Shown one piece after another: positions 445 through 41,108 of a stretch of 41,356 bases of DNA. This DNA is from a virus: the IMG/VR virus record IMGVR_UViG_3300049489_000677, positions 1 to 41,356 of that record; one strand, given 5' to 3'. Within the stretch, counting starts at the first letter, position 1, and every line of letters begins with the position of its first letter. Under the pieces are notes generated by a model. That model saw nothing but the letters and a program-made list of their open reading frames with translations. It ran no database searches and was not told the origin of the DNA. The position numbers were made by a program, and so were the translations under genes.

Positions 445-783
445 TTATTTATCTAACCCCTTGGACTTGAGGGTGGGGAGGTAGTTTTCTGCAATTTCAA
501 TATATCGGCGATTGCTTCCTCCTTGATTTTGTGCAACATATCCTTTTGCAAACGGTAAGATTAGGAATACTACTTTCTGCCCCTCTTCCCTCTCCTCCTC
601 CACCGCCTCCTGTACTTGCTGTTCTGCGTAGGATTGAAGTGCTTCTTTTACCCATTCCTCTATAAGTTGACCATTAAACCCAGTTGAAAAAACAACTCCA
701 CCATCTTCTCCTTCACTGTAATAGTTTTCGGTAAACTCTTTTTTGTAATCCTCAATACTCTTGTGTGTGTTTGGTTGAGTCAT
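445..783 (-). CDS. Hypothetical acidic protein (112 aa), paralogue of the 38738-39199 gene
   Basis: No known domain was recognised. The protein begins MTQPNTHKSIE, has a Glu/Gln-rich helix (EQQVQEAVEEEREEG, about 54-68) and ends TLKSKGLDK. The same three elements, THKSIE, QQVQEAVE and TLKSKGL, occur in the same order in the gene at 38738-39199. The DNA itself is near identical in short islands: 461-476 matches 38760-38775, and 598-623 matches 38888-38913. The middle parts differ, so the two genes look like products of duplication plus segment swapping. It is probably a cytoplasmic early protein of unknown role. Confidence 0.65.
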   Translation of the reverse strand: MTQPNTHKSIEDYKKEFTENYYSEGEDGGVVFSTGFNGQLIEEWVKEALQSYAEQQVQEAVEEEREEGQKVVFLILPFAKGYVAQNQGGSNRRYIEIAENYLPTLKSKGLDK

Positions 784-13284: not shown

Positions 13285-13824
13285 ATGAACTATAATAAAT
13301 TTCTTGTTGGGTTTGCGGTCGTGATTTCTCTAGTAAGCCTTTATGTGGCAACACGAGAAGATGCAGCGGTTGGTACATCTTATGATGGTTCAATCATTAC
13401 TAATCCTTTCACTTTTGAAGCAAATATAAAGGCACAAGGAGGGCTAAACTATGAAGAAGTTTACGAGGCTGTTACTACTAGTAATACACTAACAGTCGCA
13501 GAAAGCGGACTTACTTCATATTTAGCGACTGGGGGGACTTCAACTCTTCCCGCGGTAGCATCTTCAGCAGGAGTCGTATTACGATTCGTAGTGGCTGATG
13601 CAATTACAGCCTCAACTAGTGTTGTTTCGGCTGAGGGGGATAATATCGAAGGTTCAATGATTGTAGCAGGGGCAGTAGTTGATTGTAATGCTAACGATGA
13701 AATTCGTTTTGTCGACAATCTTGAAAATGTTGGTGATTATGTAGAACTTAGGTCTAATGGAACTAAGTGGTTTGTTACTTCGAGTAACGCTTTAACTGCA
13801 TCATCATTGACTTGTTCTGGGTAA
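13285..13824 (+). CDS. Putative virion protein with N-terminal membrane anchor (179 aa)
   Basis: Residues 5-22 (KFLVGFAVVISLVSLYVA) form a hydrophobic anchor after a short Asn/Lys start. The rest is beta-rich, Thr/Ser-rich and ends with GDYVELRSNGTKWFVTSSN plus a tail ending SLTCSG; the C-terminal 'GDYVELRSNGTKWFV' pattern is common in phage decoration or fibre domains. An anchored structural protein is odd: it might be exported to the host membrane instead of assembled. The stop is followed by a strong hairpin at 13836-13857. Confidence 0.55.
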   Translation: MNYNKFLVGFAVVISLVSLYVATREDAAVGTSYDGSIITNPFTFEANIKAQGGLNYEEVYEAVTTSNTLTVAESGLTSYLATGGTSTLPAVASSAGVVLRFVVADAITASTSVVSAEGDNIEGSMIVAGAVVDCNANDEIRFVDNLENVGDYVELRSNGTKWFVTSSNALTASSLTCSG

Positions 13825-21608: not shown

Positions 21609-24600
21609 ATGTATAAACCAACCAGTTTACAATTGCTCGAAGAAAAAAAGAAACGAGATCAATTGGTTTTTGGTGTACCGAATACAAGTACTTTAACCTT
21701 AAAGGGGTCAATGGTTTCACCACAAAGTACTCCGTCTCGAATGGCTGATTTAAAATCAAAAACTACTCCTAAGAAAACAATACAAGAAATAGCTAGTCAA
21801 ACTAAGCAAGTTTCAGGTCAACAATCGCTTATACCACGCAAGCCAGTGGGAGATAGGATAAGTGCTTCAAAGACACAAGAACGTACTCAATTGTCTAAGA
21901 CAAGAGAAATTCCTATTGTTGGTAAGATATTGGCTGGTACAGGTAAAGGTAAAAGTGGACTTTATGCTGAAGATACGATTGCTGGACAGATGGAAAGAAA
22001 AGGAGTTATTGGTTTCTTGACTGAAGGTTTTATTGCAAAGACTGATCCATCTTTAGAGCAGTTAAACAATCGTATTTATGAACGATATGCAAAAAATCGA
22101 GAGGAAGGATTACCAGAGGATAGAGCTATCGATGTGGCAGTACAAGATGTATTTAATACCACAGCTTCAACTGCTAAAAATTTAGCCGATTTAAAAGAAC
22201 CTGGGGTTAAACTGACTGAAGAAGAAGAAAATTTAGCTAAATGGATAAATTTAAAAGAAAATGTTTTTGCTTTTTTAGATGCGCCTATTTTTTTAGGGAG
22301 TACTAAAGGTCTTTCTTTAGCTGGGAAAGAAGCTTTTAAACAATCAGTTGGGGAGGTTAGAGACGGTATCATTACTAGGTTGGAGAAGGAAGTAGTTGAT
22401 GATGCTACTTTAATCCCTGGAAGTGATCCAAGTCGTAGGGTAGATATATTAAAAGATGAAGGTATTACTGAGAAAGTAGATACTTATTTAAAAGATCTAA
22501 AAGAAAATCCAACACCTAGCTTTAATCAACTTAATGAAGGGTTGCAGTTGTTAAAATTACAAGGTAAAGAAGTAGATGATTTTTCAGAAAAGTTAGTTGA
22601 TATTACTAAGCAGGCTTTTGATGAACCAGTTAGTCAATTACGAAAAGTAAGTACTGAGAGTAAGGTAAATGATGTTTCTAAACAAGAATTACCAATAGAT
22701 CAATTAATAGTTAAAGCGTCTGATATTAAATTGACTACTAAGAGTCAGAATACTTTAGAAGCATTTAATCGTAGTGAGGGTCAAGAAGTTATAACAAAAT
22801 TAGATGATAATACTAATATTGAATTAGGTAGTTATGGTAAGAATACTTTTGCAAGAAAGGTTGATAAAGAAGACAGGTTTCCTTTAGAAGAAGTTAAATC
22901 TACTATAGAAAGTGCCACCGTAGTTTTACCAGCAAGTTTAAGTGATACAACTTATAGGGCTAGTAATAAAGTATTTTTAACCCCAGATAAAGATGGTTTA
23001 AAAGCTGTTTATACAAGAACAAATAAAGGAGGGGCAGAGGAAATTATAAACTGGCATTCTGTTCCTAAAGAAAAGGTTGAAAAATATTTAAATGATATTG
23101 GTGTCCCCGACCGGATTCGAACCGGTATGACGAGCTTAGAAGGCTCACAGTTTGTCCGATTAGCTTACGGAGACAATTTAACGCTATCACAACAGTTGTC
23201 CAGGGTCAATATGGGTATAAAAGGAGAAATTGCTAGACGTCCTGGGGAAGCTTTGGCTGGTGGTGTTTTTGGCTACGAAGAAAATGAGGAGGGTGATGTA
23301 GAAATTGACCCAATGAAAGCTTTTTTAGGTATGGCGGCTGCTGGTTTTCTTGGTCTTAACCTAAAGAAACAACAAGGAGTTTCTGATCTACGTTCTAATC
23401 AGGCCAAAAACTTGTCTTCTGATTTGGTTGAGGATACTGCGGTTCGTAACCTTCCTGACCAGCCCAAACTCCAAACTGGAATACCAGTAGAAAAGCTAGG
23501 ACAAGCAGAATACCCCCTATCGTCTCAAACTTTTTCGGTTTCATTAGCTAAAGAGTACGCTTCAGTAGCAGGAAAGTCAATAGACGAAGCAGTTGATGGT
23601 TTAGGACCCACTGAGTTTAGTGTAGAAAAAGTAGGTAAATATGGGGAATTTCGCAAGAATTTTGAAAAAGCCTGGGTGAAAACAGTCGAGGTAGTGCAGG
23701 ATAACATGATCCGTGTCCGAAATTTAATACAAGATCCTACAGTAAAAGTGACTGATGATACTAATCCCTATCTTGCTGAATTACTTTTCCATGGACGTGT
23801 TGGTTTTCGACTAAAAGAAGCTAAGGATAAGTTTGTGGCAATTGACAAAGATGTAGTAGAAACCTCTAAGAAAGTGGGTATTTCTGGTGAAGATATGACC
23901 TTATTAGTTAATAAGTTTCTACATGCTAGGCATACTCCAGAAAGAAATGCAAAACTGGGGGATGGTGCTTCGGGGTTAACTAATGTTGAAGCTGACTTAA
24001 TAACAAAAAGTTTAGAAGCTTTACCATATTCTAGTGAAGTAAAGAGGATTGCTGACCAGGTACAGGAGATGAATAATGAAACTCTTGATCTTTTACTTGA
24101 AGCACAAGTGATTGACCGGGAGGCTTATGATGCGATGCGAGATGTTTATAAAAATCATGTTCCTCTTAATCGTATTTTAAAAGAGAATGAGGATGTAGCA
24201 TCATCTTTAACTGGGCGAGGTTTTGATGTCCGAGGGACGGGAATCAAACGAGCAAAAGGTAGTGATTTACAAGTTGCCGATATTATGGCAAACGTTGTAG
24301 TTAATTATGAGCAGGCAATAATTAGATCAGAAAAAAATCTAGTCGATCTAACATTATTACAGTTTGTTAAAGATAATCCACAAGTAACTTTGTTTGAGGA
24401 AGTTAAGCCGAAAGTTATTGGTAGAAAATTTGATCGTCCAGGCAAAAGTAATTTAAATCCAGAAGAAGAAGCCTACTTATCTGATCGAGAAATACCCCCT
24501 GTAATGGAACAAGATGTTTCAATTCTTAGAGACAAAATAGATAATACTTGGGCTAATATTTATGGTGAGATGGATTATGCTACAGCTGGTAAACGAAAAG

Positions 24601-26738
24601 ACAAGGTCTGGTTAGATGAATCAGGCAATATAGATAAAATAACTTCAACTCGGTCCACTTTTCCTAATTGGGTTCCGGAAGAAGGAGGGTTACGAGATAA
24701 GGCACTTTTTAACAAGGTCCTTGATCTACATTCAACTGGTAAGGTTCCTCGAGCAAATGCTACTAGAGAACGAGCCTTACTTGATATAATGGAGGGAGAG
24801 ATGTTAAAGAGACTACCTTTAAACTTACAAGAAGAAGTCGCTCTTTCTTACTTAGCTAAAGAAAACGAAACATTAGCTTCAGTTTATGCTAAAGCTCAGT
24901 CAGCGAGAGGACAACTTATTTTCGAACAAGTTAACGATCCTCGTGTTTTATCTTTACGTAAAAATGGTAAACCAGTACATCTTTTGATTAAAGATGATGA
25001 TTTAGCTGTTGCTCTAAAGGGGGTAAATCACCAACATTTACCTGGGCTATTAAAGTTTATTGGAACTTTTACTAGACTCTATTCTGGTCTTCAGACTCGT
25101 TTTAACCCTGAATTTGCGTTCCCCAATAAGATTCGTGACTTACAGGAAGCGGTAGTATATGCGGGATCTAGGGGTGAGTTAGGTTTTAAATCAGGTATTA
25201 AAGGAGCTTTGGATCAACGGTCTTACAAAGATATTGTTGATTTTATGAGTGGTAAAGATACTGAAGGAGCAAAACTTTATCGTCAAATGCAAGAAGATGG
25301 TGGTACAACCGGAGGAATGGGACTATCCACCCGTGAGCAAATTGAGCTTGATTTGACAGAAATACGAAACATTAATCGTAGTAACCCTCGTCAGGCTGCG
25401 GAAATGTTTATTACAAAGATTGATCAATTTAACACTATTTTTGAAGACTCGACTCGGTTAAGTCTTTATAAACAAGCTCTAAAAAACGGTGTTAGTCGTA
25501 AACGAGCAGCTATGATTGCTAAAGAAGCTTCGGTAAACTTTAATAAATTTGGAACTGGTGGACCGGTTTTAAATGCTTTATTCATGTTTGCTAATGCAAG
25601 TATCCAAGGTACTACAAAAATGTTACGGGCGATGAAAAACCCTAAAGTGGCTGCCACTGTTACAACCGCAGTCGGAACAGCTGTATTAGCTTCTGGAGAA
25701 TGGAATGATCGGATTGATCCGGATTGGAGAGATAAGGTAACAAAGTGGGATAGGATAAATTCAATTACTATGGTTCTACCCTCAACTGATGAATCTGGTT
25801 TTGATTATGTGTCTATCCCAGTAGGCTGGGGTATTAAGCCAGTTAAAGTTTCTATGGATTATTTATATGACTCAATGGTTGGTAAGGGTCAAGGTTGGCA
25901 AGATTCTTTAAATGCAATCGGAGCAGCTACAGTAAATGCTTACAACCCTTTAGGTGGTTCAGATATATTTTCCTCTGTTACCCCGACTATCATGGATATA
26001 CCGTTAGAAGTTGCGCGGAATAAAGCGTGGCATGGTGGGGCAATAATGCCAGACTGGGATAAAAATGCTCCTGATTCTATTCGATATTTTCCATCTTTAC
26101 AAGATAACTCAACAGGGAAAATTGCTGTCCAACTTTCTGAAGGATTATCTGGAGTAGGTATAGAAGTTTCTCCAGCTGCTATTTACTATGCTTACCAAGG
26201 GTATGTTGGAGGGGCAGGAAGGACAGCAACAGATTTTATTAACACAATAATTACTGCGGGAACCGGTGAAATGCCAGAACCTAATGACATACCAGTTTGG
26301 TCAAGATTTGTTCGTCAACGAGACAATGAGGAAATAGGTGAAGCTTCACAAGAATATGAGATGGTAAAGGAAGTTTTGGCTGAACAATCAAAAGATCGTT
26401 TCTATTTAAAACAAGATGCAGAAAATACTTATCGACAACTGTCAAGTATGGATGCCGAAGAAGCGGCTAAAGTGTTTGATGATCTTATTGTGAAAGATCC
26501 TGAGTTGGCTAAAAAGGTTAATGAAATTATGGATGAAGAAGAACTCGGTTTGACCTACACTCAACGACTCATTAAACAACTTGGAGTAGAGAATGGACAA
26601 AGAGCTACTTTTATTGCAAATAAATTAAATAGTTTAAAGACACAAGAAGAGAAGGCCGAATTGTGGGACGAGTATGTGGAAAAGAAGTTAATAACCAATT
26701 CCGTAGCTGAACAACTCGATATATTATTAGAAGATTAA
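21609..26738 (+). CDS. Giant polyvalent / ejected internal virion protein (1709 aa)
   Basis: The largest gene of the window. The N-terminal third is low in recognisable folds; residues about 420-520 (SNKVFLTPDKDGLKAVYTR...INWHSVP) look like an inserted toxin-nuclease-type domain (barnase/EndoU-like group), which I only suspect. The C-terminal part has NKFGTGGPVLNALFMFANAS..., DRINSITMVLP and PVGWGIKPVKV, the pattern of the LPD38-type domain of large polyvalent phage proteins. Such proteins are carried in the head and injected. The antisense tRNA-Arg covers codons about 497-522, and base composition changes just upstream of it. Translation runs unbroken through it. Confidence 0.7.
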   Translation: MYKPTSLQLLEEKKKRDQLVFGVPNTSTLTLKGSMVSPQSTPSRMADLKSKTTPKKTIQEIASQTKQVSGQQSLIPRKPVGDRISASKTQERTQLSKTREIPIVGKILAGTGKGKSGLYAEDTIAGQMERKGVIGFLTEGFIAKTDPSLEQLNNRIYERYAKNREEGLPEDRAIDVAVQDVFNTTASTAKNLADLKEPGVKLTEEEENLAKWINLKENVFAFLDAPIFLGSTKGLSLAGKEAFKQSVGEVRDGIITRLEKEVVDDATLIPGSDPSRRVDILKDEGITEKVDTYLKDLKENPTPSFNQLNEGLQLLKLQGKEVDDFSEKLVDITKQAFDEPVSQLRKVSTESKVNDVSKQELPIDQLIVKASDIKLTTKSQNTLEAFNRSEGQEVITKLDDNTNIELGSYGKNTFARKVDKEDRFPLEEVKSTIESATVVLPASLSDTTYRASNKVFLTPDKDGLKAVYTRTNKGGAEEIINWHSVPKEKVEKYLNDIGVPDRIRTGMTSLEGSQFVRLAYGDNLTLSQQLSRVNMGIKGEIARRPGEALAGGVFGYEENEEGDVEIDPMKAFLGMAAAGFLGLNLKKQQGVSDLRSNQAKNLSSDLVEDTAVRNLPDQPKLQTGIPVEKLGQAEYPLSSQTFSVSLAKEYASVAGKSIDEAVDGLGPTEFSVEKVGKYGEFRKNFEKAWVKTVEVVQDNMIRVRNLIQDPTVKVTDDTNPYLAELLFHGRVGFRLKEAKDKFVAIDKDVVETSKKVGISGEDMTLLVNKFLHARHTPERNAKLGDGASGLTNVEADLITKSLEALPYSSEVKRIADQVQEMNNETLDLLLEAQVIDREAYDAMRDVYKNHVPLNRILKENEDVASSLTGRGFDVRGTGIKRAKGSDLQVADIMANVVVNYEQAIIRSEKNLVDLTLLQFVKDNPQVTLFEEVKPKVIGRKFDRPGKSNLNPEEEAYLSDREIPPVMEQDVSILRDKIDNTWANIYGEMDYATAGKRKDKVWLDESGNIDKITSTRSTFPNWVPEEGGLRDKALFNKVLDLHSTGKVPRANATRERALLDIMEGEMLKRLPLNLQEEVALSYLAKENETLASVYAKAQSARGQLIFEQVNDPRVLSLRKNGKPVHLLIKDDDLAVALKGVNHQHLPGLLKFIGTFTRLYSGLQTRFNPEFAFPNKIRDLQEAVVYAGSRGELGFKSGIKGALDQRSYKDIVDFMSGKDTEGAKLYRQMQEDGGTTGGMGLSTREQIELDLTEIRNINRSNPRQAAEMFITKIDQFNTIFEDSTRLSLYKQALKNGVSRKRAAMIAKEASVNFNKFGTGGPVLNALFMFANASIQGTTKMLRAMKNPKVAATVTTAVGTAVLASGEWNDRIDPDWRDKVTKWDRINSITMVLPSTDESGFDYVSIPVGWGIKPVKVSMDYLYDSMVGKGQGWQDSLNAIGAATVNAYNPLGGSDIFSSVTPTIMDIPLEVARNKAWHGGAIMPDWDKNAPDSIRYFPSLQDNSTGKIAVQLSEGLSGVGIEVSPAAIYYAYQGYVGGAGRTATDFINTIITAGTGEMPEPNDIPVWSRFVRQRDNEEIGEASQEYEMVKEVLAEQSKDRFYLKQDAENTYRQLSSMDAEEAAKVFDDLIVKDPELAKKVNEIMDEEELGLTYTQRLIKQLGVENGQRATFIANKLNSLKTQEEKAELWDEYVEKKLITNSVAEQLDILLED
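23099..23174 (-). tRNA. tRNA-Arg (anticodon UCU) antisense inside the giant virion gene
   Basis: All canonical positions are present on the minus strand: acceptor GTCTCCG with CGGGGAC (one G-U pair), T8 A9, D arm with G18 G19 A21 (one C-A mismatch in the D stem), anticodon stem TGAGC/GCTCG with loop CTTCTAA (anticodon TCT), a 4-base variable loop, T arm ACCGG/CCGGT with loop TTCGAAT, and an encoded A73 and CCA. Total length 76. The opposite strand is translated as part of the 1709-aa protein. It might be a functional phage tRNA, a relic of recombination with a host tRNA, or an attachment-site remnant. Confidence 0.8.
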
Positions 26739-29626: not shown

Positions 29627-32600
29627 ATGAAAAATCATTTAATTGCTTTAGTCTTAGGAGTAGTAACACTCATCAGTGGTTATTTACTTTATCAACATTT
29701 TAAGCCTTCCCTCATATCAGTTGGTTCAGAGATGACCGGCTCTGTCTGGTTTTTAAATACTTCTCAACAAATACAATCAGCTTTATCAACCTGGGGATTA
29801 CGTGTACCATCTCTAGCCAACTGTGACACAATCGATACTAATGGAAGTGGAGTGTTTACTTGTGGTAGTGACGCAACTGGTGGAGGTGGAGGTGGGGGTC
29901 TATCCACTACAACTCCTTGGACTAACGGTAACTTAGCCTATGTTACAGGCTTGGGTACCGTCGGTAGTGTAGCAACTGGTACTTTAACGGAAACTGTAAC
30001 AGGACTAGAATTTGATGCTACTAGAGGGCTTGTTGGAGGTGCGGCGGTTTTGTCACTTTCTTCTGGATACACGATACCTACAACTACGGGATTATCTAAT
30101 CTCTATGCTAATAGTCATAGTCCTGTCACTCTATCTGGGGCTTTAGACTATATAACTCTTGTCGGTCAAGATATTGTTCGAGGGGCAATCAGTTTAGTTG
30201 ACGACATTACTGGTGTTTTAGGACTAGCTAATGGTGGTACTGGATCGAACTTATCCGACCCTAACGCTGATCGGATCATGTTCTGGGATGACAGTGCTGG
30301 GCAGACAACCTGGCTAACCGCTGGTAGTGGACTCTCTATTTCTGGTACAACAATGACTGCTACAGGGGGTAGTGCCTCTTCAACAGCCTCAACCTCGCTG
30401 ACGGTTTGTTCACGAAGTGTTTGTGATTATGTGACCGATGGTGCGGCCGACGAAGTACAGATCAATCAAGCTCTTTCCGCCGCTTCCACGACTGGAGGAA
30501 TTATCCAGTTATTTAATGAGACTTATGTTATTGCTGCACCAATTGTCTTAAATGGTGAGACAGCTAATGATACAGGGAATCCTACCATCCAACTGAGAGG
30601 TATGGGTATTGACAGTACAATCCTTGACGCGGCTTCAAATGTTAACGTTATTGAGTTACGAAAAGAGCCTAAATTTGTTATCGAGGATATGACCTTACGT
30701 CCAGCGGGATCGGGTTATGGAGTCTACCAGGTTGCCGGAACCGAACGAGGAAACTGGCAATCAGAGTTTCGTAACATCTTTATTGAAGGAGACTTTTCAA
30801 CAATGACAGCTTCTTCTTGGGGTATGTACTTAGAGTCACCTTTCCGAATGAGATTTGAAAACATCGAAATGAACGGCGTGGTTAACGGTATCGCTTTACT
30901 TTCACACACTGAAGCGTTTAATCCAGGAAACCTATCGATTGATCGTATGTTTATTGATCTATGGGACAACGCTGTTTCAGCATCTTCAACTGCCTTTAAG
31001 CTTGCTGTAGCAACCTCATCTTCAACTGGGGTCAACAACCTTGTGTCAGTTAACCGTCTTGATATTGCTGGAGGGACTAACCTTACTAACTCTATCGGTA
31101 TTCATATTCTTGGGTCAATCTCAAGCTATGGGGATGCACGACATAATACCTTCACGAACCTTAATATTGAGGATATTAAAAACCCGATAAAACTAGAGCG
31201 AGGTAGAGACAATACTTTTATTGACATAAACTATACCCGTGTTCTAAGTGGAGGTACGATAATTTCCCTCGATAGTAATTCACACAATAACTTCTTTGAG
31301 AATGTCTACGCGGTAGCACAAGGAGCTAGTCAAACTTTTAACCTTATTACTGACTCTAATGGATCTTCTAACTTGCCTAACCGTCTAGCTCGGGTTGACG
31401 GTTTCCAACCGTCCAGTGTGACTATTAACGCTAGTCTAGCGGCGAACACAATCCTTGAACATATTGACCTTAGTGGTGGTTCACCAACAATCGATTCGGA
31501 TATTACTGATCGCAACAATCGTCGTACTTTTGCTGATGTTTTAGTAACTGATGAAGTATACGGAGCAGGATGGGATTCTAGCCTAGAGGTTCCAACAAAG
31601 AATGCTCTATACGACAAGATTCAGACTCTCGGTGGTTCAGGTGCAGTTTACCTTGCTACTTCTTCACCTTGGACTGAAGGAAATGTTGCTTATGTAACAG
31701 GACAGGGGACCGTGGGTAGCGTTGCTACAGGGACTTTAACCGAGACTGTTTCAGGGCTTGAATTAAACTCAACAAGAGCTTTAATTGGAGGTAGTGCCAT
31801 TCTTGCTTTAACTTCCGGCTTTACTATCCCCCTAACCGCGTCAACAACTGAATGGTCTGACTTTTTCACTACTCCTTCAGGCCGAATAACAGCAGGTACA
31901 GGAATAGACTGGTCTGGTAATACTCTTAATGGGGTATACACCGCCGGGGATGCTTTGACTTTAACTGGTGAGGACTTTGACTTTGATGGGGGTGCATCCC
32001 CGGCTGGTGAACTAGGTGGTACTTGGGCTTCACCGACAATTGATGATTCTTTGTCTGTTACTAGCTGGAACTTAACTACACCAACACTAACTTCTTTCTT
32101 CGGAACTCCTTGTTCAGGGAATCAATTCCTACAAGACATTTCCGATACTGGAGCATTTACTTGTGCGACAGCTTCAGGCGGGGGAGGGAGTGGTTCCTTA
32201 TCAACAACAACTGACATTGTTGGTGATCCAGCTACCGCACAAGAGGCAGCTTACCTAACAACTGACTTTATGATCGGTGGCAGTGCTTCAACTTCAGCTG
32301 AGTTTCAGTTTGACGATGATGGAGGTAAGTTTATTATCTCCTCATCTTCCGCTAACGCTACAGGGACGATAGAAAGTACTAACATTACTCAATCCATGAG
32401 GATCGGAGATGATAGTGGAGTAGGGTTAGAGTACATCTTCTCAGTGGTCGGCGATGCAATAATAAAGGCATATGGTGCTATTACAGAACTGATTATTACA
32501 ATGGCTGAGACTCTGTTTCAAGGGAATGTAAAAGTGACTGGTACTATGCACGTAGCAACGACGACTTATTATGGAGCGACAACAACGGACGCACTGACAA

Positions 32601-33364
32601 TTGCTGGGTTTAATAACTCGGGAGAGTGGCTACAAGAGTTTTGTACTTCTCCTACAGCGGAAGTAACTCAAGTAGTGGCCGACACACTAAGAGGATGTGG
32701 ACGCTTTGCTTATCTTGAAGATGCGAACGGCGCCCTTGATTTTACTGTGCCAACAACTGGTACTTCAACTTACTTCCGCTTACGTCCCGGAGCTACTGGG
32801 GTCACAACAGCCGCTGGTGACGGTATGGGTATTGGTTGGGCTTCAGGACTGGACTTCGGTGATATTCAAAGGCAATCTCCAGCGATGGAATGGGCAATGA
32901 GGCAAGATGCAATGTCAGCAGCTACTTCGACCTTCCTTATTGCAGGAATAACTGATGCTATCTCTGTATCAGCTAACTTTGCCGCCGAACCAGCGCAGGG
33001 ATTCTACATAATTGCAACAAGTACCGCTAATTTCCAGTTTGCTTGTAACCCTTCTACTGGGGGGACGACTTACATAGATACTGGTATTGCTTCTTCTACT
33101 ACCACAACAACTTCAGCTAACCCATTTAATCATTTCAGACTAGAGGTCGGGGGTACGTCAAATACAGCAGTAACTGCTATATTGAAGGCTAGAACAGTTA
33201 CTAATCAGAATATGACCCATATAGGATCCTGTACACTAGATCTTAGTGCCTCAACACAAGCGGTGGCTCCTACAGTAGCTATCGGTAAATCAACAGCAGG
33301 GACTTCGCCAGAATTGCATGTTATGTTCATAAAATTCTGGTATCGACATAAAGTATTCTTCTAA
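29627..33364 (+). CDS. Large tailspike-like protein with beta-helix and N-terminal membrane anchor (1245 aa)
   Basis: Residues 4-22 (HLIALVLGVVTLISGYLLY) are a hydrophobic anchor. A Cys pair (C66, C79) precedes a Gly-rich linker. The central part (about 255-660), with CDYVTDGAADEVQINQAL and strand ladders such as RNIFIEGDFSTM and ENIEMNGVVNGIAL, is a right-handed pectate-lyase-type beta-helix as in tailspikes. A 60-residue module occurs twice (about 94-153 and 676-736). The C-terminal part (about 1040-1245) is another beta domain. It may bind or cut surface polysaccharide. An anchor at the N-terminus is unusual for a spike and raises the option of cell-surface display. Confidence 0.65.
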   Translation: MKNHLIALVLGVVTLISGYLLYQHFKPSLISVGSEMTGSVWFLNTSQQIQSALSTWGLRVPSLANCDTIDTNGSGVFTCGSDATGGGGGGGLSTTTPWTNGNLAYVTGLGTVGSVATGTLTETVTGLEFDATRGLVGGAAVLSLSSGYTIPTTTGLSNLYANSHSPVTLSGALDYITLVGQDIVRGAISLVDDITGVLGLANGGTGSNLSDPNADRIMFWDDSAGQTTWLTAGSGLSISGTTMTATGGSASSTASTSLTVCSRSVCDYVTDGAADEVQINQALSAASTTGGIIQLFNETYVIAAPIVLNGETANDTGNPTIQLRGMGIDSTILDAASNVNVIELRKEPKFVIEDMTLRPAGSGYGVYQVAGTERGNWQSEFRNIFIEGDFSTMTASSWGMYLESPFRMRFENIEMNGVVNGIALLSHTEAFNPGNLSIDRMFIDLWDNAVSASSTAFKLAVATSSSTGVNNLVSVNRLDIAGGTNLTNSIGIHILGSISSYGDARHNTFTNLNIEDIKNPIKLERGRDNTFIDINYTRVLSGGTIISLDSNSHNNFFENVYAVAQGASQTFNLITDSNGSSNLPNRLARVDGFQPSSVTINASLAANTILEHIDLSGGSPTIDSDITDRNNRRTFADVLVTDEVYGAGWDSSLEVPTKNALYDKIQTLGGSGAVYLATSSPWTEGNVAYVTGQGTVGSVATGTLTETVSGLELNSTRALIGGSAILALTSGFTIPLTASTTEWSDFFTTPSGRITAGTGIDWSGNTLNGVYTAGDALTLTGEDFDFDGGASPAGELGGTWASPTIDDSLSVTSWNLTTPTLTSFFGTPCSGNQFLQDISDTGAFTCATASGGGGSGSLSTTTDIVGDPATAQEAAYLTTDFMIGGSASTSAEFQFDDDGGKFIISSSSANATGTIESTNITQSMRIGDDSGVGLEYIFSVVGDAIIKAYGAITELIITMAETLFQGNVKVTGTMHVATTTYYGATTTDALTIAGFNNSGEWLQEFCTSPTAEVTQVVADTLRGCGRFAYLEDANGALDFTVPTTGTSTYFRLRPGATGVTTAAGDGMGIGWASGLDFGDIQRQSPAMEWAMRQDAMSAATSTFLIAGITDAISVSANFAAEPAQGFYIIATSTANFQFACNPSTGGTTYIDTGIASSTTTTTSANPFNHFRLEVGGTSNTAVTAILKARTVTNQNMTHIGSCTLDLSASTQAVAPTVAIGKSTAGTSPELHVMFIKFWYRHKVFF
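29906..30085 (+). repeat. Repeated tailspike module, copy 1 (partner at about 31655-31840)
   Basis: Copy 1 encodes PWTNGNLAYVTGLGTVGSV... and copy 2 PWTEGNVAYVTGQGTVGSV...; both go on with ATGTLTETV and end before TIP. The protein is well conserved while the DNA differs at many third positions, so the duplication is not recent and the module is under selection. It probably joins the spike's folded parts. Confidence 0.7.
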
Positions 33365-33365
33365 C

Positions 33366-34463
33366 ATGGACTCTAAGCGTATTATTGCTGGGATTATCGG
33401 AGTAACCTTAATCGGGGGTAGTTTAGTACTGGACCCTGGATATGAGCAGGTTGAGTGGAAATACTCGCAGTCGGTTCCACGCTTTGATACACCATCAGGA
33501 AATCTAACTCAAGGGCAATATGGAGTGACTGATACAGGTCAGATATTATATAACCGTGATGGTACGGTACGTTCTCTTGATGAAGATCCCGCCTTTATTG
33601 ATGACCTAGAGGAAAGACAATATCTGGGTGTTAAGTATCAAGATGTCTTTGAGGGTGGGGTAATCGAAGAGGTGACGGCAAAAGATTATGCAGACTTAGA
33701 GACAAATGAACGACTACCAGTAAAGACTAAATTTGTTTTAGCGAAAGATCTGGAAGCAGCGATTGTTAATGAAGCGACTAACTTCGCTGACTCTTCCGGT
33801 TTCGTTAATTCCTTAACCTTGTCTATCGATTGTACTGAGACTGATCGAGGAGTAGTGACTGGGGTTGCTAATAGGGTATTGAGTGAAATTACCGGAGCAA
33901 CTCATAATGGAGATGCTATGACTAGTGAAGTTACAAAGGAAAACACAAACGTAGCAGGAGCAATGATGTTTTCTCGGACAGCCGCTGACTCAGGGACAAA
34001 TAATGTGGTTGTCTCTTTGTCTGCTTTTCGTCTTTTATCTGTCTTTAATATCTGTCTTTCAGGGACAGATCAAACGGACATGATTGAAGCCACTGGTTCA
34101 GATGGGGGTTTCGGTTCAACAAGAAGTGTCACTCTAACAACATTAACCAACGGGGCTTGGGTTATGTCAACAATTAACTCTCAGGGAACTAGGACATTCA
34201 CTCCTGACGCTGGTGAAACTGAACTTAATGATTCTGACCACTCCGATGGTAGCCTTGGAGCTATTGGTGTCTCATATTTAGAAGATGCTGTTGCCGGTAG
34301 TGAGACTATTGGCTGGACCATATCATCAAGTGACAATGCTGAGATGGTGGCGGTAGCAATAAAACCAGCGTCGGGAGGTGGCGGAGGAGGGGAAGCAATC
34401 ACCACACCTTCATCCACACTAAAAGGTGGCTTACAAGTCAAGGGGGGTGTTATAATTAAGTAA
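33366..34463 (+). CDS. Membrane-anchored jelly-roll-like surface or virion protein (365 aa)
   Basis: Residues 5-20 (RIIAGIIGVTLIGGSLV) form a hydrophobic anchor. The middle has a tail-fibre-like 'QYGVTDTGQILYNRDG' segment. Residues about 180-345, with GATHNGDAMT, SGTDQTDMIEATGS, GAIGVSYLEDAVAGSETIGW and NAEMVAVAIKPA, form the Ser/Thr-rich beta sandwich also seen in fibre gene 17173. A Gly-rich linker and a short C-terminal tail follow. It overlaps the promoter of the next gene by its last codons. Not clearly virion or cell-surface. Confidence 0.55.
   Translation: MDSKRIIAGIIGVTLIGGSLVLDPGYEQVEWKYSQSVPRFDTPSGNLTQGQYGVTDTGQILYNRDGTVRSLDEDPAFIDDLEERQYLGVKYQDVFEGGVIEEVTAKDYADLETNERLPVKTKFVLAKDLEAAIVNEATNFADSSGFVNSLTLSIDCTETDRGVVTGVANRVLSEITGATHNGDAMTSEVTKENTNVAGAMMFSRTAADSGTNNVVVSLSAFRLLSVFNICLSGTDQTDMIEATGSDGGFGSTRSVTLTTLTNGAWVMSTINSQGTRTFTPDAGETELNDSDHSDGSLGAIGVSYLEDAVAGSETIGWTISSSDNAEMVAVAIKPASGGGGGGEAITTPSSTLKGGLQVKGGVIIK
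34448..34462 (+). promoter_or_regulatory. Near-leaderless promoter of the lysis region
   Basis: TG-T-TATAAT (TATAAT 34451-34456) sits in the last codons of the 365-aa gene. The start is predicted at about 34463, two bases before ATG 34465. Confidence 0.55.
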
Positions 34464-37087: not shown

Positions 37088-37120
37088 CTAAAAAATCCCC
37101 TAGAGCAGGGGATTTTTTAG
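37088..37120. terminator. Strong bidirectional terminator
   Basis: CTAAAAAATCCCC (37088-37100) and GGGGATTTTTTAG (37108-37120) form a perfect 13-bp stem around a 7-base loop; A and T runs on both sides serve both strands. It ends the lysozyme transcript from the left and the zinc-microprotein transcripts from the right. Confidence 0.9.
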
Positions 37121-37400: not shown

Positions 37401-37425
37401 AAAAAACCCGCCTAGGTGGCGGGTT
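37401..37425 (-). terminator. Terminator of the 53-aa zinc-finger gene
   Basis: AACCCGCC and GGCGGGTT form an 8-bp stem around TAGGT at about 37405-37425; on the minus strand it is followed by T6. The TAG stop (37412-37414) of the gene lies inside the hairpin, so ribosomes at the stop would interfere with termination. Confidence 0.75.
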
Positions 37426-37573
37426 GGGGTTGAAGGGGGAGAGTCTTGCGAAAGAAACTGTCGGCGCACTTCGGGTTGCAGAAGTTCACCACACCGTTGT
37501 CTTCGCAGATCACCTTGTATGGATAGCTGGCGGGACGTTGGCAATAGAGACACTTCGGGTCTTGTTTTCGCAT
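37412..37573 (-). CDS. FCS/TRASH-type zinc-finger microprotein (53 aa)
   Basis: The protein has C8-x2-C11 (KCLYCQ), C23 and then FCNPKCADSFF (C32, C36), the pattern of FCS/TRASH/MYM-like treble-clef fingers ('FC.xxC...F'). Such domains bind zinc and often mediate protein or nucleic-acid contacts. It has its own promoter TGC-TATAAT (37600-37605, rc) with a 20-base leader including GGAG. It is a stand-alone transcription unit. Confidence 0.7.
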   Translation of the reverse strand: MRKQDPKCLYCQRPASYPYKVICEDNGVVNFCNPKCADSFFRKTLPLQPQPAT

Positions 37574-37796: not shown

Positions 37797-37897
37797 GGGG
37801 ACGTAGCTCAACGGTAGAGCGGGCTTTTGAAAGCAGCCGTGTGCCCTGTTCTAGACACCACGTCACACATGAGTAGGTTCAACTCCTACCGTCCCCA
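37797..37897 (+). tRNA. Atypical tRNA-like gene with 34-base variable region
   Basis: Acceptor GGGGACG/CGTCCCC pairs perfectly; T8 A9, D arm GCTC/GAGC with G18 G19, and T arm GTAGG/CCTAC with loop TTCAACT are normal. The anticodon arm GGCTT/CAGCC has 4 of 5 pairs; by position the anticodon is GAA (Phe). The region between anticodon arm and T arm has 34 bases with a GTGTG/CACAC stem, far longer than in tRNA-Phe. It may be a class II-like tRNA with altered identity, an intron-bearing tRNA, or a tRNA mimic. No CCA is encoded. Confidence 0.65.
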
Positions 37898-38737: not shown

Positions 38738-39199
38738 TTACTCTTTATCTACTAATCCCTTGGACTTGAGGGTGGAGATAACGTCTTCAAAATGACTTAT
38801 CATGTAGTCAATCCCATCTTCACCTGTGTCTCCATGTCGTGCTGGGTTGTATTCTTGCCACCTGTCCCTTATTTCTTTTTGGATATGCTCCACCGCCTCC
38901 TGTACTTGCTGTTGGGCTACGATTTCCATTCGTGATAGAAAGTAATCACGCATTTTGTAGGGATTCATTTCCTTTTGCTCTTTGTACCACTCGTCGAAAA
39001 GTTGCTCCTCAATACTCTTGTGTGTCACTCTCGAAAAGCCACTAGCTTCTGGTGTTTCAAAAATTTCTGATGGTGTCCTACTCTCATCTGGATCCCCTAC
39101 ATCACATGGTTTTTTACATCCTAAACAGACATTGTATTTAGTAGTGTCTCCTTCGATCATGTAAGTCCTACCGCAACATAATGATTTTCTTGGTGTCAT
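38738..39199 (-). CDS. Zinc-ribbon-plus-helical protein (153 aa), paralogue of 445-783
   Basis: The N-terminus has CCGRTY...VCLGCKKPC (a zinc-ribbon of CC and CxxC with an extra C). The rest shares THKSIE, AQQQVQEAVE and TLKSKGL with the 112-aa protein at 445-783, with DNA nearly identical in islands. The middle and C-terminal helices (YDYMISHFEDV-like region) differ. I chose ATG 39199, one base after the cellulase stop; a longer frame (39256) would overlap it. Possible regulator built from a zinc module and a shared scaffold. Confidence 0.65.
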   Translation of the reverse strand: MTPRKSLCCGRTYMIEGDTTKYNVCLGCKKPCDVGDPDESRTPSEIFETPEASGFSRVTHKSIEEQLFDEWYKEQKEMNPYKMRDYFLSRMEIVAQQQVQEAVEHIQKEIRDRWQEYNPARHGDTGEDGIDYMISHFEDVISTLKSKGLVDKE

Positions 39200-39200
39200 A

Positions 39201-40526
39201 TTACAATCCTCCCTTAATAATATCCTTATAAACTGTATCACTATTGTACCACTCACCCGCTGACCAGTAGAATGACTTTACTACCTCATTGTTAGACTTT
39301 AAGCCGTTAACAAATGGTTTCATGTTGTCTACCCAGTTTTGCTTTGGTGGTACGCCAAACTCAGTAATAGCGATCTTCACTCCATGCTTCTTCGCCCACG
39401 CTACTACATAGTTTAACCTTTCGACGTGTAGTTCGGCACTTTCATTCGGGTCATTTGGGTGGCTAAATCCAGTGTTACCCTTGTTAAAGTAATTGTGGAA
39501 GACGTAGACGTAGCGATCACCCTTAAATGGTGGAACCATATCTTTCTTCCCGTCGGCAAAGTCGTCCATACTAGACCAATTAAACATCGGGATAGCGATA
39601 GTCTTATTCCAACCAGTAGCTTCTATGGCTGGTACTACCTCTTTAACCCAATTCCAGTAGTTGTCATAGCTGATATTGCCACTGTGAGGCTCGTTATCTA
39701 TCTCCATCGCTTCTACTGTGCTGTCATTCTTAAACAAGTTAGCTAACTCTACCCGACTAGCCGTGTTTGGACTCCTTCCGTAATCATGAAAGTCTAACCA
39801 GACCTTACCATTTACCGCCTTAGCATGGTTAACATTATCAACGATATACTGCGTATACGCCCCTCCTAGACGTTTAGTGATGAATGGTACTCTAAAGGTC
39901 TTAAATCCAGCGTTAGCGAGTCTCTGGTACTCTCCTAGGCCGTTTGACTTGTAGTTTTGGTTATTGGCCCCTGGGATTGTCCCTTCGGCAAACTCTAACC
40001 CTGCTACGGCTATCCCAATATCTGAAGAGATAGGTTGAGTAGGGGTAATTGGTGGCTTAGGTGGTGTTGTCGTAGCCACGGGCGTTGTAGTCGCTACTGG
40101 CTTAGGCGGGGTAACAACTGGTGTAGTAGTAGCTACGGGGGTAGTGGTAGCAACGGGTGGAGTGACCACGGGTGGTGTAACTACTACTGGTGTTGGCTCA
40201 TCTTCTTCCTCCTCTACGATCTTAGGCTTATTATTACTCTTCTTTTTCTTCTTCTTTTTAACTTCTTCCTTCTTCTCTGGCTTTGGTGTCCAGTAAGCGA
40301 CTGAGTTACTGTTATAAACGGTTTTTGGTACGGACGCTGTTACCTTTGTAACTGTCTTTTCCTCAGTAGTTGTTGCGGTACTAGTAACAACCTCAGTAGT
40401 CGTCGTAGCGACTTGGGTTACTTCTGGTACAGGCACAACTACCATTAAGTCGGTCGTGGCTAGTTTATAAAACGGTATTAGACAAATGATAAAGAACAAC
40501 AACGAAAGAACTTTTACTATTTTCAT
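39201..40526 (-). CDS. Membrane-anchored GH5-type glycoside hydrolase (cellulase-like, 441 aa)
   Basis: Residues 5-24 form a signal anchor. A Lys-rich then Glu-rich part and a Pro/Thr linker (about 110-165, VATTTPVATTTP-like repeats) lead to a TIM-barrel domain (about 170-441). Catalytic candidates are E279 in EIDNEPH (acid/base, the GH-A 'NEP') and E389 in AITEFGVP (nucleophile); VWLDFHDYG, HNYFN and FYWSAGEW are further GH5 barrel motifs. It should cut beta-glycans at the cell surface. GH5 enzymes are rare in phages and may have come from a bacterium or the host. Its ATG overlaps the TGA of the 26-aa peptide. Confidence 0.85.
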   Translation of the reverse strand: MKIVKVLSLLFFIICLIPFYKLATTDLMVVVPVPEVTQVATTTTEVVTSTATTTEEKTVTKVTASVPKTVYNSNSVAYWTPKPEKKEEVKKKKKKKSNNKPKIVEEEEDEPTPVVVTPPVVTPPVATTTPVATTTPVVTPPKPVATTTPVATTTPPKPPITPTQPISSDIGIAVAGLEFAEGTIPGANNQNYKSNGLGEYQRLANAGFKTFRVPFITKRLGGAYTQYIVDNVNHAKAVNGKVWLDFHDYGRSPNTASRVELANLFKNDSTVEAMEIDNEPHSGNISYDNYWNWVKEVVPAIEATGWNKTIAIPMFNWSSMDDFADGKKDMVPPFKGDRYVYVFHNYFNKGNTGFSHPNDPNESAELHVERLNYVVAWAKKHGVKIAITEFGVPPKQNWVDNMKPFVNGLKSNNEVVKSFYWSAGEWYNSDTVYKDIIKGGL

Positions 40527-40603
40527 ATAAATATGATGGTGATAACCACGAAGGCTATCAAAAACTTAATTATTAACTTCAAATCTTCTCTTTTTTCCTT
40601 CAA
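40523..40603 (-). CDS. TM micropeptide (26 aa) with coupled start and stop
   Basis: The frame starts at TTG 40603, overlapping the TGA of the Cys-triplet gene by four bases (TTGA), and its TGA overlaps the cellulase ATG (ATGA). It encodes KEKREDLKL followed by an aliphatic TM helix. The same DLKL-TM pattern (KKEDLKLVV...) ends the 51-aa zinc-ribbon protein at 40953, so it looks like a partial duplicate. The non-ATG start lowers confidence. Confidence 0.4.
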   Translation of the reverse strand: MKEKREDLKLIIKFLIAFVVITIIFI

Positions 40604-40956
40604 TTTCGGTAGTATCCGCCAAGAAATGCGTGATATGCTGGCCAGAGATCATCATTGCTTTTTTTATCATTTTTATTATGGGAATCATCACAACCAATGC
40701 AATTGTGGCAATTACTACAACTATTGCAACCATGGCAAAAATGGCAATTATGACAATCAATACAACTATGGCAGTCATAACAACAATAGCAACCCCAAGA
40801 ATAGCTACAGTCGCTACAATTCCAACAGGCTTTATTGGTCTTGTTCATTTCCTCGTATGTCGTATAATCTTGTGCAAACGACTCACTTACCCCATTCTCT
40901 TTTTTGTCTTCCCTTTTCAGGAAATCTGAATAGGTTTTATAGATTTTTGTTTTCAT
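40600..40956 (-). CDS. Cys-x-x triplet-repeat protein (118 aa)
   Basis: Residues 44-89 have Cys at every third position, 44, 47, 50, then 56 through 89, with only position 53 (Ser) breaking the series, plus C58: 16 cysteines in 46 residues. The intervening residues are His, Asn, Asp, Ser and Tyr. The rest is an acidic/polar N-terminus and a Lys/Asp and aromatic C-terminus. A regular Cys ladder could bind several metals or form a disulfide-linked coil. No named family is recognised. The start (ATG 40956) is fixed by ATGA overlap with the upstream zinc-ribbon/TM gene. Confidence 0.75.
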   Translation of the reverse strand: MKTKIYKTYSDFLKREDKKENGVSESFAQDYTTYEEMNKTNKACWNCSDCSYSWGCYCCYDCHSCIDCHNCHFCHGCNSCSNCHNCIGCDDSHNKNDKKSNDDLWPAYHAFLGGYYRN

Positions 40957-41108
40957 GTTATTAAGACCACTACGATTATTACTAAGATAATAATTACTAC
41001 TAACTTCAAATCCTCCTTCTTTCTCTTCAACACTTCTTCGGACAACCAGCAAGGGTCACAAAGTCCATCGAAGTGTGATTTTTCTATTCCACATTTTTTG
41101 CATAACAT
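40953..41108 (-). CDS. Zinc-ribbon / C-terminal TM protein (51 aa)
   Basis: MLCKKCGIEKSHFDGLCDPCW gives two CxxC knuckles (C3, C6, C17, C20) in 20 residues. A basic linker (LKRKKEDLK) leads to a TM helix of about 17 residues (LVVIIILVIIVVVLIT). It is a tail-anchored zinc-ribbon, cytoplasmic side in. The stop overlaps the ATG of the Cys-triplet gene (ATGA), suggesting the two work together. Not found as a known family. Confidence 0.7.
   Translation of the reverse strand: MLCKKCGIEKSHFDGLCDPCWLSEEVLKRKKEDLKLVVIIILVIIVVVLIT

Follow-up and report, generated by a model that had tools for sequence, protein, structure and literature searches.

The DNA analysed here (the window) is the whole 41,356-nucleotide stretch of IMG/VR record IMGVR_UViG_3300049489_000677. 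Its minus strand encodes, at positions 39201-40526, a glycoside hydrolase of family 5 (GH5) with a hydrophobic N-terminus, a long stalk and a complete catalytic barrel. Sequence comparisons and a structure model suggest, with a probability of about one half, that this is an accessory phage gene whose product would be exported, stay tethered to the membrane and trim beta-glycan around the infected cell. A sequence-only reading had located the gene at the same coordinates. The reading frame is open for 454 codons, with an in-frame stop 13 codons before the ATG. The gene, its parts and its downstream neighbour are as follows.

39201-40526, minus strand: gene of the GH5 protein, 441 residues; ATG at 40526, TAA at 39201-39203 (ORF and translation, PF00150)
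40461-40526, minus strand: N-terminal hydrophobic segment, residues 1-22, MKIVKVLSLLFFIICLIPFYKL (Kyte-Doolittle 2.33)
40026-40448, minus strand: stalk, residues 27-167, PVATTTPVATTTP (composition)
39204-40025, minus strand: predicted GH5 catalytic (beta/alpha)8 barrel, residues 168-441 (Pfam, model, Foldseek and VIA matches to GH5_5 endoglucanases)
39690-39692, minus strand: GAG encoding E279, the predicted acid/base (pairs with RBcel1 E135 in the alignments, chains 7p6g and 5ljf included)
39360-39362, minus strand: GAG codon of E389, predicted nucleophile (aligned with RBcel1 E245)
38738-39199, minus strand: co-directional gene that follows; 1 nt separates its ATG from the GH5 stop codon (sequence, start contexts, shuffle test)

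Residues 201-423 matched the Pfam profile PF00150 (Cellulase/GH5) with an E value of 4e-21 and 76.1 bits (cut-off 23.5), which is far above chance level. The best solved relative was RBcel1 (E 3e-13 with phmmer, 3e-20 with a profile), a GH5_5 endo-1,4-beta-glucanase in which E135 is the acid/base, E245 the nucleophile and Y201 the conserved tyrosine (PMC8900817). Both catalytic glutamates, which had been named as E279 and E389 from the letters of the sequence, are correctly numbered and align with E135 and E245, respectively. The PDB chains of three RBcel1 mutants, i.e. 7p6g (E135Q), 5ljf (E135A) and 6zz3 (Y201F), aligned exactly at E279 or Y346 and link these residues to the predicted catalytic positions independently of a manual reading of the alignment. 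All eight residues usual in GH5 enzymes are kept (R212, H247, N278, E279, H344, Y346, E389 and W421). The AlphaFold model, calculated from a two-sequence alignment, was an eight-stranded TIM barrel of alternating strands and helices (pLDDT 71, pTM 0.80), and the 274-residue barrel would almost certainly fold with an intact active site.

Foldseek searches with this model ranked GH5_5 endoglucanases first, and the VIA comparison gave Z scores of 23.8-25.8 to the GH5_5 group versus 22.1 or less to other GH5 structures, the subfamily labels of single PDB entries being in part those that we take them to have. A tree was restricted to viral GH5_5-like proteins, two Bacteroidota proteins, one rhizobial protein and RBcel1. 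In it the protein formed a pair with its phage relative (100/100); the stem of this pair is long and its base was not resolved, and the protein is therefore called GH5_5-like and not a proven member. The fold, the catalytic pair, the tyrosine and the other active-site residues appear to be common to it and the GH5_5 endoglucanases RBcel1, Pseudomonas stutzeri Cel5A and Thermoascus aurantiacus Cel5A, but identity to these enzymes is only ~22-24% and the beta3-alpha3 region is shorter. Sequence and model thus make the protein most similar to the GH5_5 endo-beta-1,4-glucanases, and every characterised GH5_5 enzyme is an endo-1,4-beta-glucanase (PMC3526467). Placement in a non-hydrolytic clade and loss of a catalytic glutamate had been named as outcomes that would speak against an active enzyme; the nearest characterised group is hydrolytic, and both residues are retained in the alignment. 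Judging from E279, E389, Y346 and the nearest family, the enzyme would very likely hydrolyse a beta-1,4-linked glycan by a retaining double displacement. The protein gave no match in PHROGs and NCBIfam, and Pfam and PHROGs added no further domain. Its N-terminus matched the Pfam family 'New_glue' only below the cut-off, which was put down to composition.

The protein begins with MKIVK and then continues hydrophobic to about residue 20-22 (core ~4-22), the Kyte-Doolittle mean over the 19 residues that start at residue 1 being 2.33. By eye, neither a lipobox nor a good signal-peptidase I site could be found after the hydrophobic stretch, and this speaks for an anchor that is kept rather than a signal that is cut off. 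The segment, which looks uncleaved, is probably a signal anchor with N-in/C-out orientation, as had been suggested earlier, although it could also be cleaved as a signal. The stalk of ~140 residues that follows is Thr/Val-rich at first, then charged (Lys/Glu-rich), and ends in Pro/Thr-rich repeats; its final 57 residues are 32% proline and 32% threonine, in agreement with the long Pro/Thr linker described earlier. From this layout we consider it fairly likely that the N-terminal segment would stay in the host membrane while the stalk carries the barrel through the envelope. No viral relatives were found for the N-terminal 167 residues. Bacterial GH5_5 enzymes are reported as non-modular (PMC3526467), whereas this phage-encoded protein has a predicted anchor and a stalk. 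A cellular precedent for an anchored GH5 is the design of Clostridioides difficile CcsZ (GH5_25), an endo-1,4-glucanase acting on cellulose that is predicted to keep its N-terminal anchor (PMC7710045). Both proteins would have an uncleaved anchor before the GH5 domain, that of the window protein being predicted from hydropathy; CcsZ, however, is cellular, belongs to another subfamily and is encoded with cellulose synthase, and a comparable stalk is not described in the parts of that report consulted.

The only close relative of the protein (54% identity) was found in a 37.3-kb phage, IMGVR_UViG_3300035670_000659 (L002/G001). This stand-alone gene likewise encodes a barrel with a Pro/Thr linker, but a soluble-looking N-terminus of 45 residues takes the place of the anchor, and the gene lies downstream of the lysis genes. 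Enzymes of this lineage thus do not generally require tethering to the surface. By tblastn, G001 had no other gene in common with the window phage. G001 is siphovirus-like and uses Shine-Dalgarno sequences (before 23 of 32 genes, control 2), in contrast to the window phage (3 of 29, control 3) and to ten of its capsid relatives, which stayed near the controls (G005, G007-G010, G019, G027, G030, G034 and G040), indicating that the two phages probably live in different hosts. A catalytic domain 54% identical in two otherwise unrelated phages with different styles of translation start suggests selection for the enzyme in phages.

A wider scan with exact degenerate patterns, which amounts to a sample, revealed 18 other viral GH5_5-like loci. 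In the ~13 ORFs among them that could be read to the N-terminus, no N-terminal hydrophobicity exceeded 1.25 on the same Kyte-Doolittle scale. Most of the proteins are multidomain and 500-1800 residues long, several being encoded in or beside tail/structural regions, and two short types have 335-382 residues. In L082, L084, L085, L088, L089 and L094 two profile segments lie far apart, an apparent insert of ~100-300 residues between the barrel halves, near the acid/base glutamate. The structure matches in BFVD likewise included phage GH5 proteins, mainly of 700-870 residues, with structural relatives in the group of Erwinia phage S6 gp095, a GH5 cellulase (PMC9544554), and its counterparts in Klebsiella, Pseudomonas and Serratia phages. 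Proteins of this type have 700-870 residues and N-terminal domains and are encoded in a polymorphic region of the phage; a membrane anchor is not described in the parts of the source consulted. A viral GH5 from bog soil has proven endomannanase activity (PMC6786970); it is specific for mannan, and an anchor is not discussed in the sections seen. Anchored phage GH5 proteins had been called scarcely described, and within the sample surveyed here such an anchor does look rare. Phage GH5 enzymes as such are, however, well established by these two reports, and what is new here is the predicted membrane anchor. A single INPHARED match (MT835628, 23%) was dropped as a phage precedent because the record is a Bacteroidota polysaccharide-utilisation locus; MT835628.1 (L003), although labelled as bacteriophage, holds SusC/SusD-like genes and several glycoside hydrolases and is a mislabelled entry. 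Two scans of genome contigs, with the GH5 alignment and with a tail protein repeat chosen to trace the host, confirmed no relative; they used exact degenerate peptide patterns, and cellular homologues may exist.

The contig was confirmed as phage, as had been claimed, by matches to terminase, major head protein, DNA primase/helicase, M23 peptidase and transglycosylase; it represents an unclassified lineage known from metagenomes only. The GH5 gene sits in a minus-strand module with early-type genes, away from the structural operon, and terminator-like hairpins at 37088-37120 and 37405-37430 separate this module from the structural/lysis operon. This arrangement bears on whether the enzyme might instead be a depolymerase that is bound to the virion or released at lysis, acting on the polysaccharide of the next host at entry or after lysis, its N-terminus serving particle assembly or lysis-time export. 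Such a role is in keeping with the large multidomain viral GH5_5-like proteins encoded near tail genes, with S6 gp095, which degrades cellulose, the first receptor of that phage (PMC9544554), and with the G001 version, which lacks a signal and follows the lysis genes. The structural/tail operon of the window also encodes proteins that start hydrophobic (13285-13824, 29627-33364 and 33366-34463), which weakens the earlier argument that the anchor marks a surface design and not a virion part. A signal-like N-terminus argues for export of the GH5 protein and, taken alone, would be compatible with a particle component. The better argument against the virion is the position of the gene, on the opposite strand and in a separate module; moreover, no recognisable virion-binding domain is present, and the gene is not located among structural/tail genes nor fitted with attachment domains as in virion GH5 proteins of the S6 gp095 type. 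We therefore regard the depolymerase as unlikely, though a serious candidate. The ORF at 13285-13824 sits close behind the capsid gene. Likewise, 14 of the 31 capsid relatives with enough sequence (L005, L007-L012, L032, L037-L041 and L043) have one or two typically small ORFs with a hydrophobic N-terminus directly behind the capsid gene.

A stretch of 0.8 kb separates the GH5 gene from the contig end, and the gene has a higher GC3 (0.44) than most phage genes. A search of IMG/VR with the capsid protein yielded 39 contigs (41-78% identity), many of them fragments and about eight longer than 38 kb, none of which contained PF00150. All of this could also be expected if the gene were host DNA or part of an assembly chimera and not the phage's own, but such an origin is very improbable. 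The gene nearly overlaps the next one, whose Shine-Dalgarno-like AGGGAGG falls within the 3' end of the GH5 gene; the protein made from this neighbour is a relative of the one encoded at 445-783 (minus strand), at the opposite contig end (0 of 5000 shuffles reached the alignment score). The GH5 gene has the negative GC skew of the other minus-strand genes and a codon usage like that of three of them (445, 3115 and 38738), begins in a start context that is usual in the window, and has its closest relative in another phage. No viral relatives of the neighbouring gene's product were found. Given the absence from the 39 capsid-related contigs, the GH5 gene is accessory, and it is mobile. On its other side, 40600-41052 (minus strand) encodes a Cys-rich repeat protein (NCHNCxxCHGCNSCSNC...); its matches in PHROGs are weak and to entries of unknown function.

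If the preferred reading holds, the tethered glucanase would, during infection, cut beta-glycan on and around the infected cell, either a cellulose-like matrix or a surface polysaccharide, so that progeny could leave and spread and not remain stuck on the cell that made them or in its matrix. This step is tentative. Neither the ORF list nor the subset of proteins scanned showed a gene resembling a cellulose synthase. The benefit would probably lie in release and spread of progeny through the matrix, stripping of receptors and nutrition being less likely. An enzyme displayed during infection would be able to strip the polysaccharide bound by the phage or its competitors, and GH5-bearing phages with polysaccharide receptors are known (PMC9544554); but lysogeny, where exclusion of superinfecting phages matters most, is not indicated, the record being without a tyrosine-recombinase integrase, and we consider this function improbable. 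Nutrition, i.e. uptake of the released oligosaccharides by the infected cell, would agree with the usual discussion of viral GH5 genes as auxiliary metabolic genes, among them the bog-soil endomannanase (PMC6786970). It is distinctly improbable for a single gene beside which no transporter or sugar-use gene was seen. Phage enzymes that cut polysaccharides are usually viewed either as parts of the virion tail or as products of metabolic genes. A membrane-tethered enzyme made during infection would, if true, be a third mode, in which the infected cell cuts and not the particle.

A bolder version, which we consider a long shot, is that the phage turns an infected and possibly episymbiotic cell into a carrier of the tethered glucanase. 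The enzyme would then erode the matrix or wall of neighbours or of the partner so that progeny reach new hosts, as a surface-display system that is part of a lineage habit of signal-anchored proteins. The patescibacterial host presumed here is our guess, suggested by similar Thr-rich exported proteins. Patescibacterial phages with surface-related auxiliary genes have been reported from groundwater (PMC12911398), which makes such a host plausible and nothing more.

Neither the capsid nor the portal protein matched named phages, and a 99-kb capsid-related contig that was read for host genes gave no clear result. The near absence of a Shine-Dalgarno signal before the genes of the lineage, with AAT or TAT often found directly before the ATG, is a hint of a host that initiates translation in an unusual way. 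A tRNA-Arg(TCT) was well predicted at 23102-23174 (minus strand) by ARAGORN and by Rfam (53.4 bits), antisense inside an ORF of 1709 residues (21609-26738). A second Rfam tRNA match at 37797-37897 (plus strand; 47.3 bits) was not reported by ARAGORN; with 101 nt it is longer than usual, perhaps through an insertion or a long variable arm.
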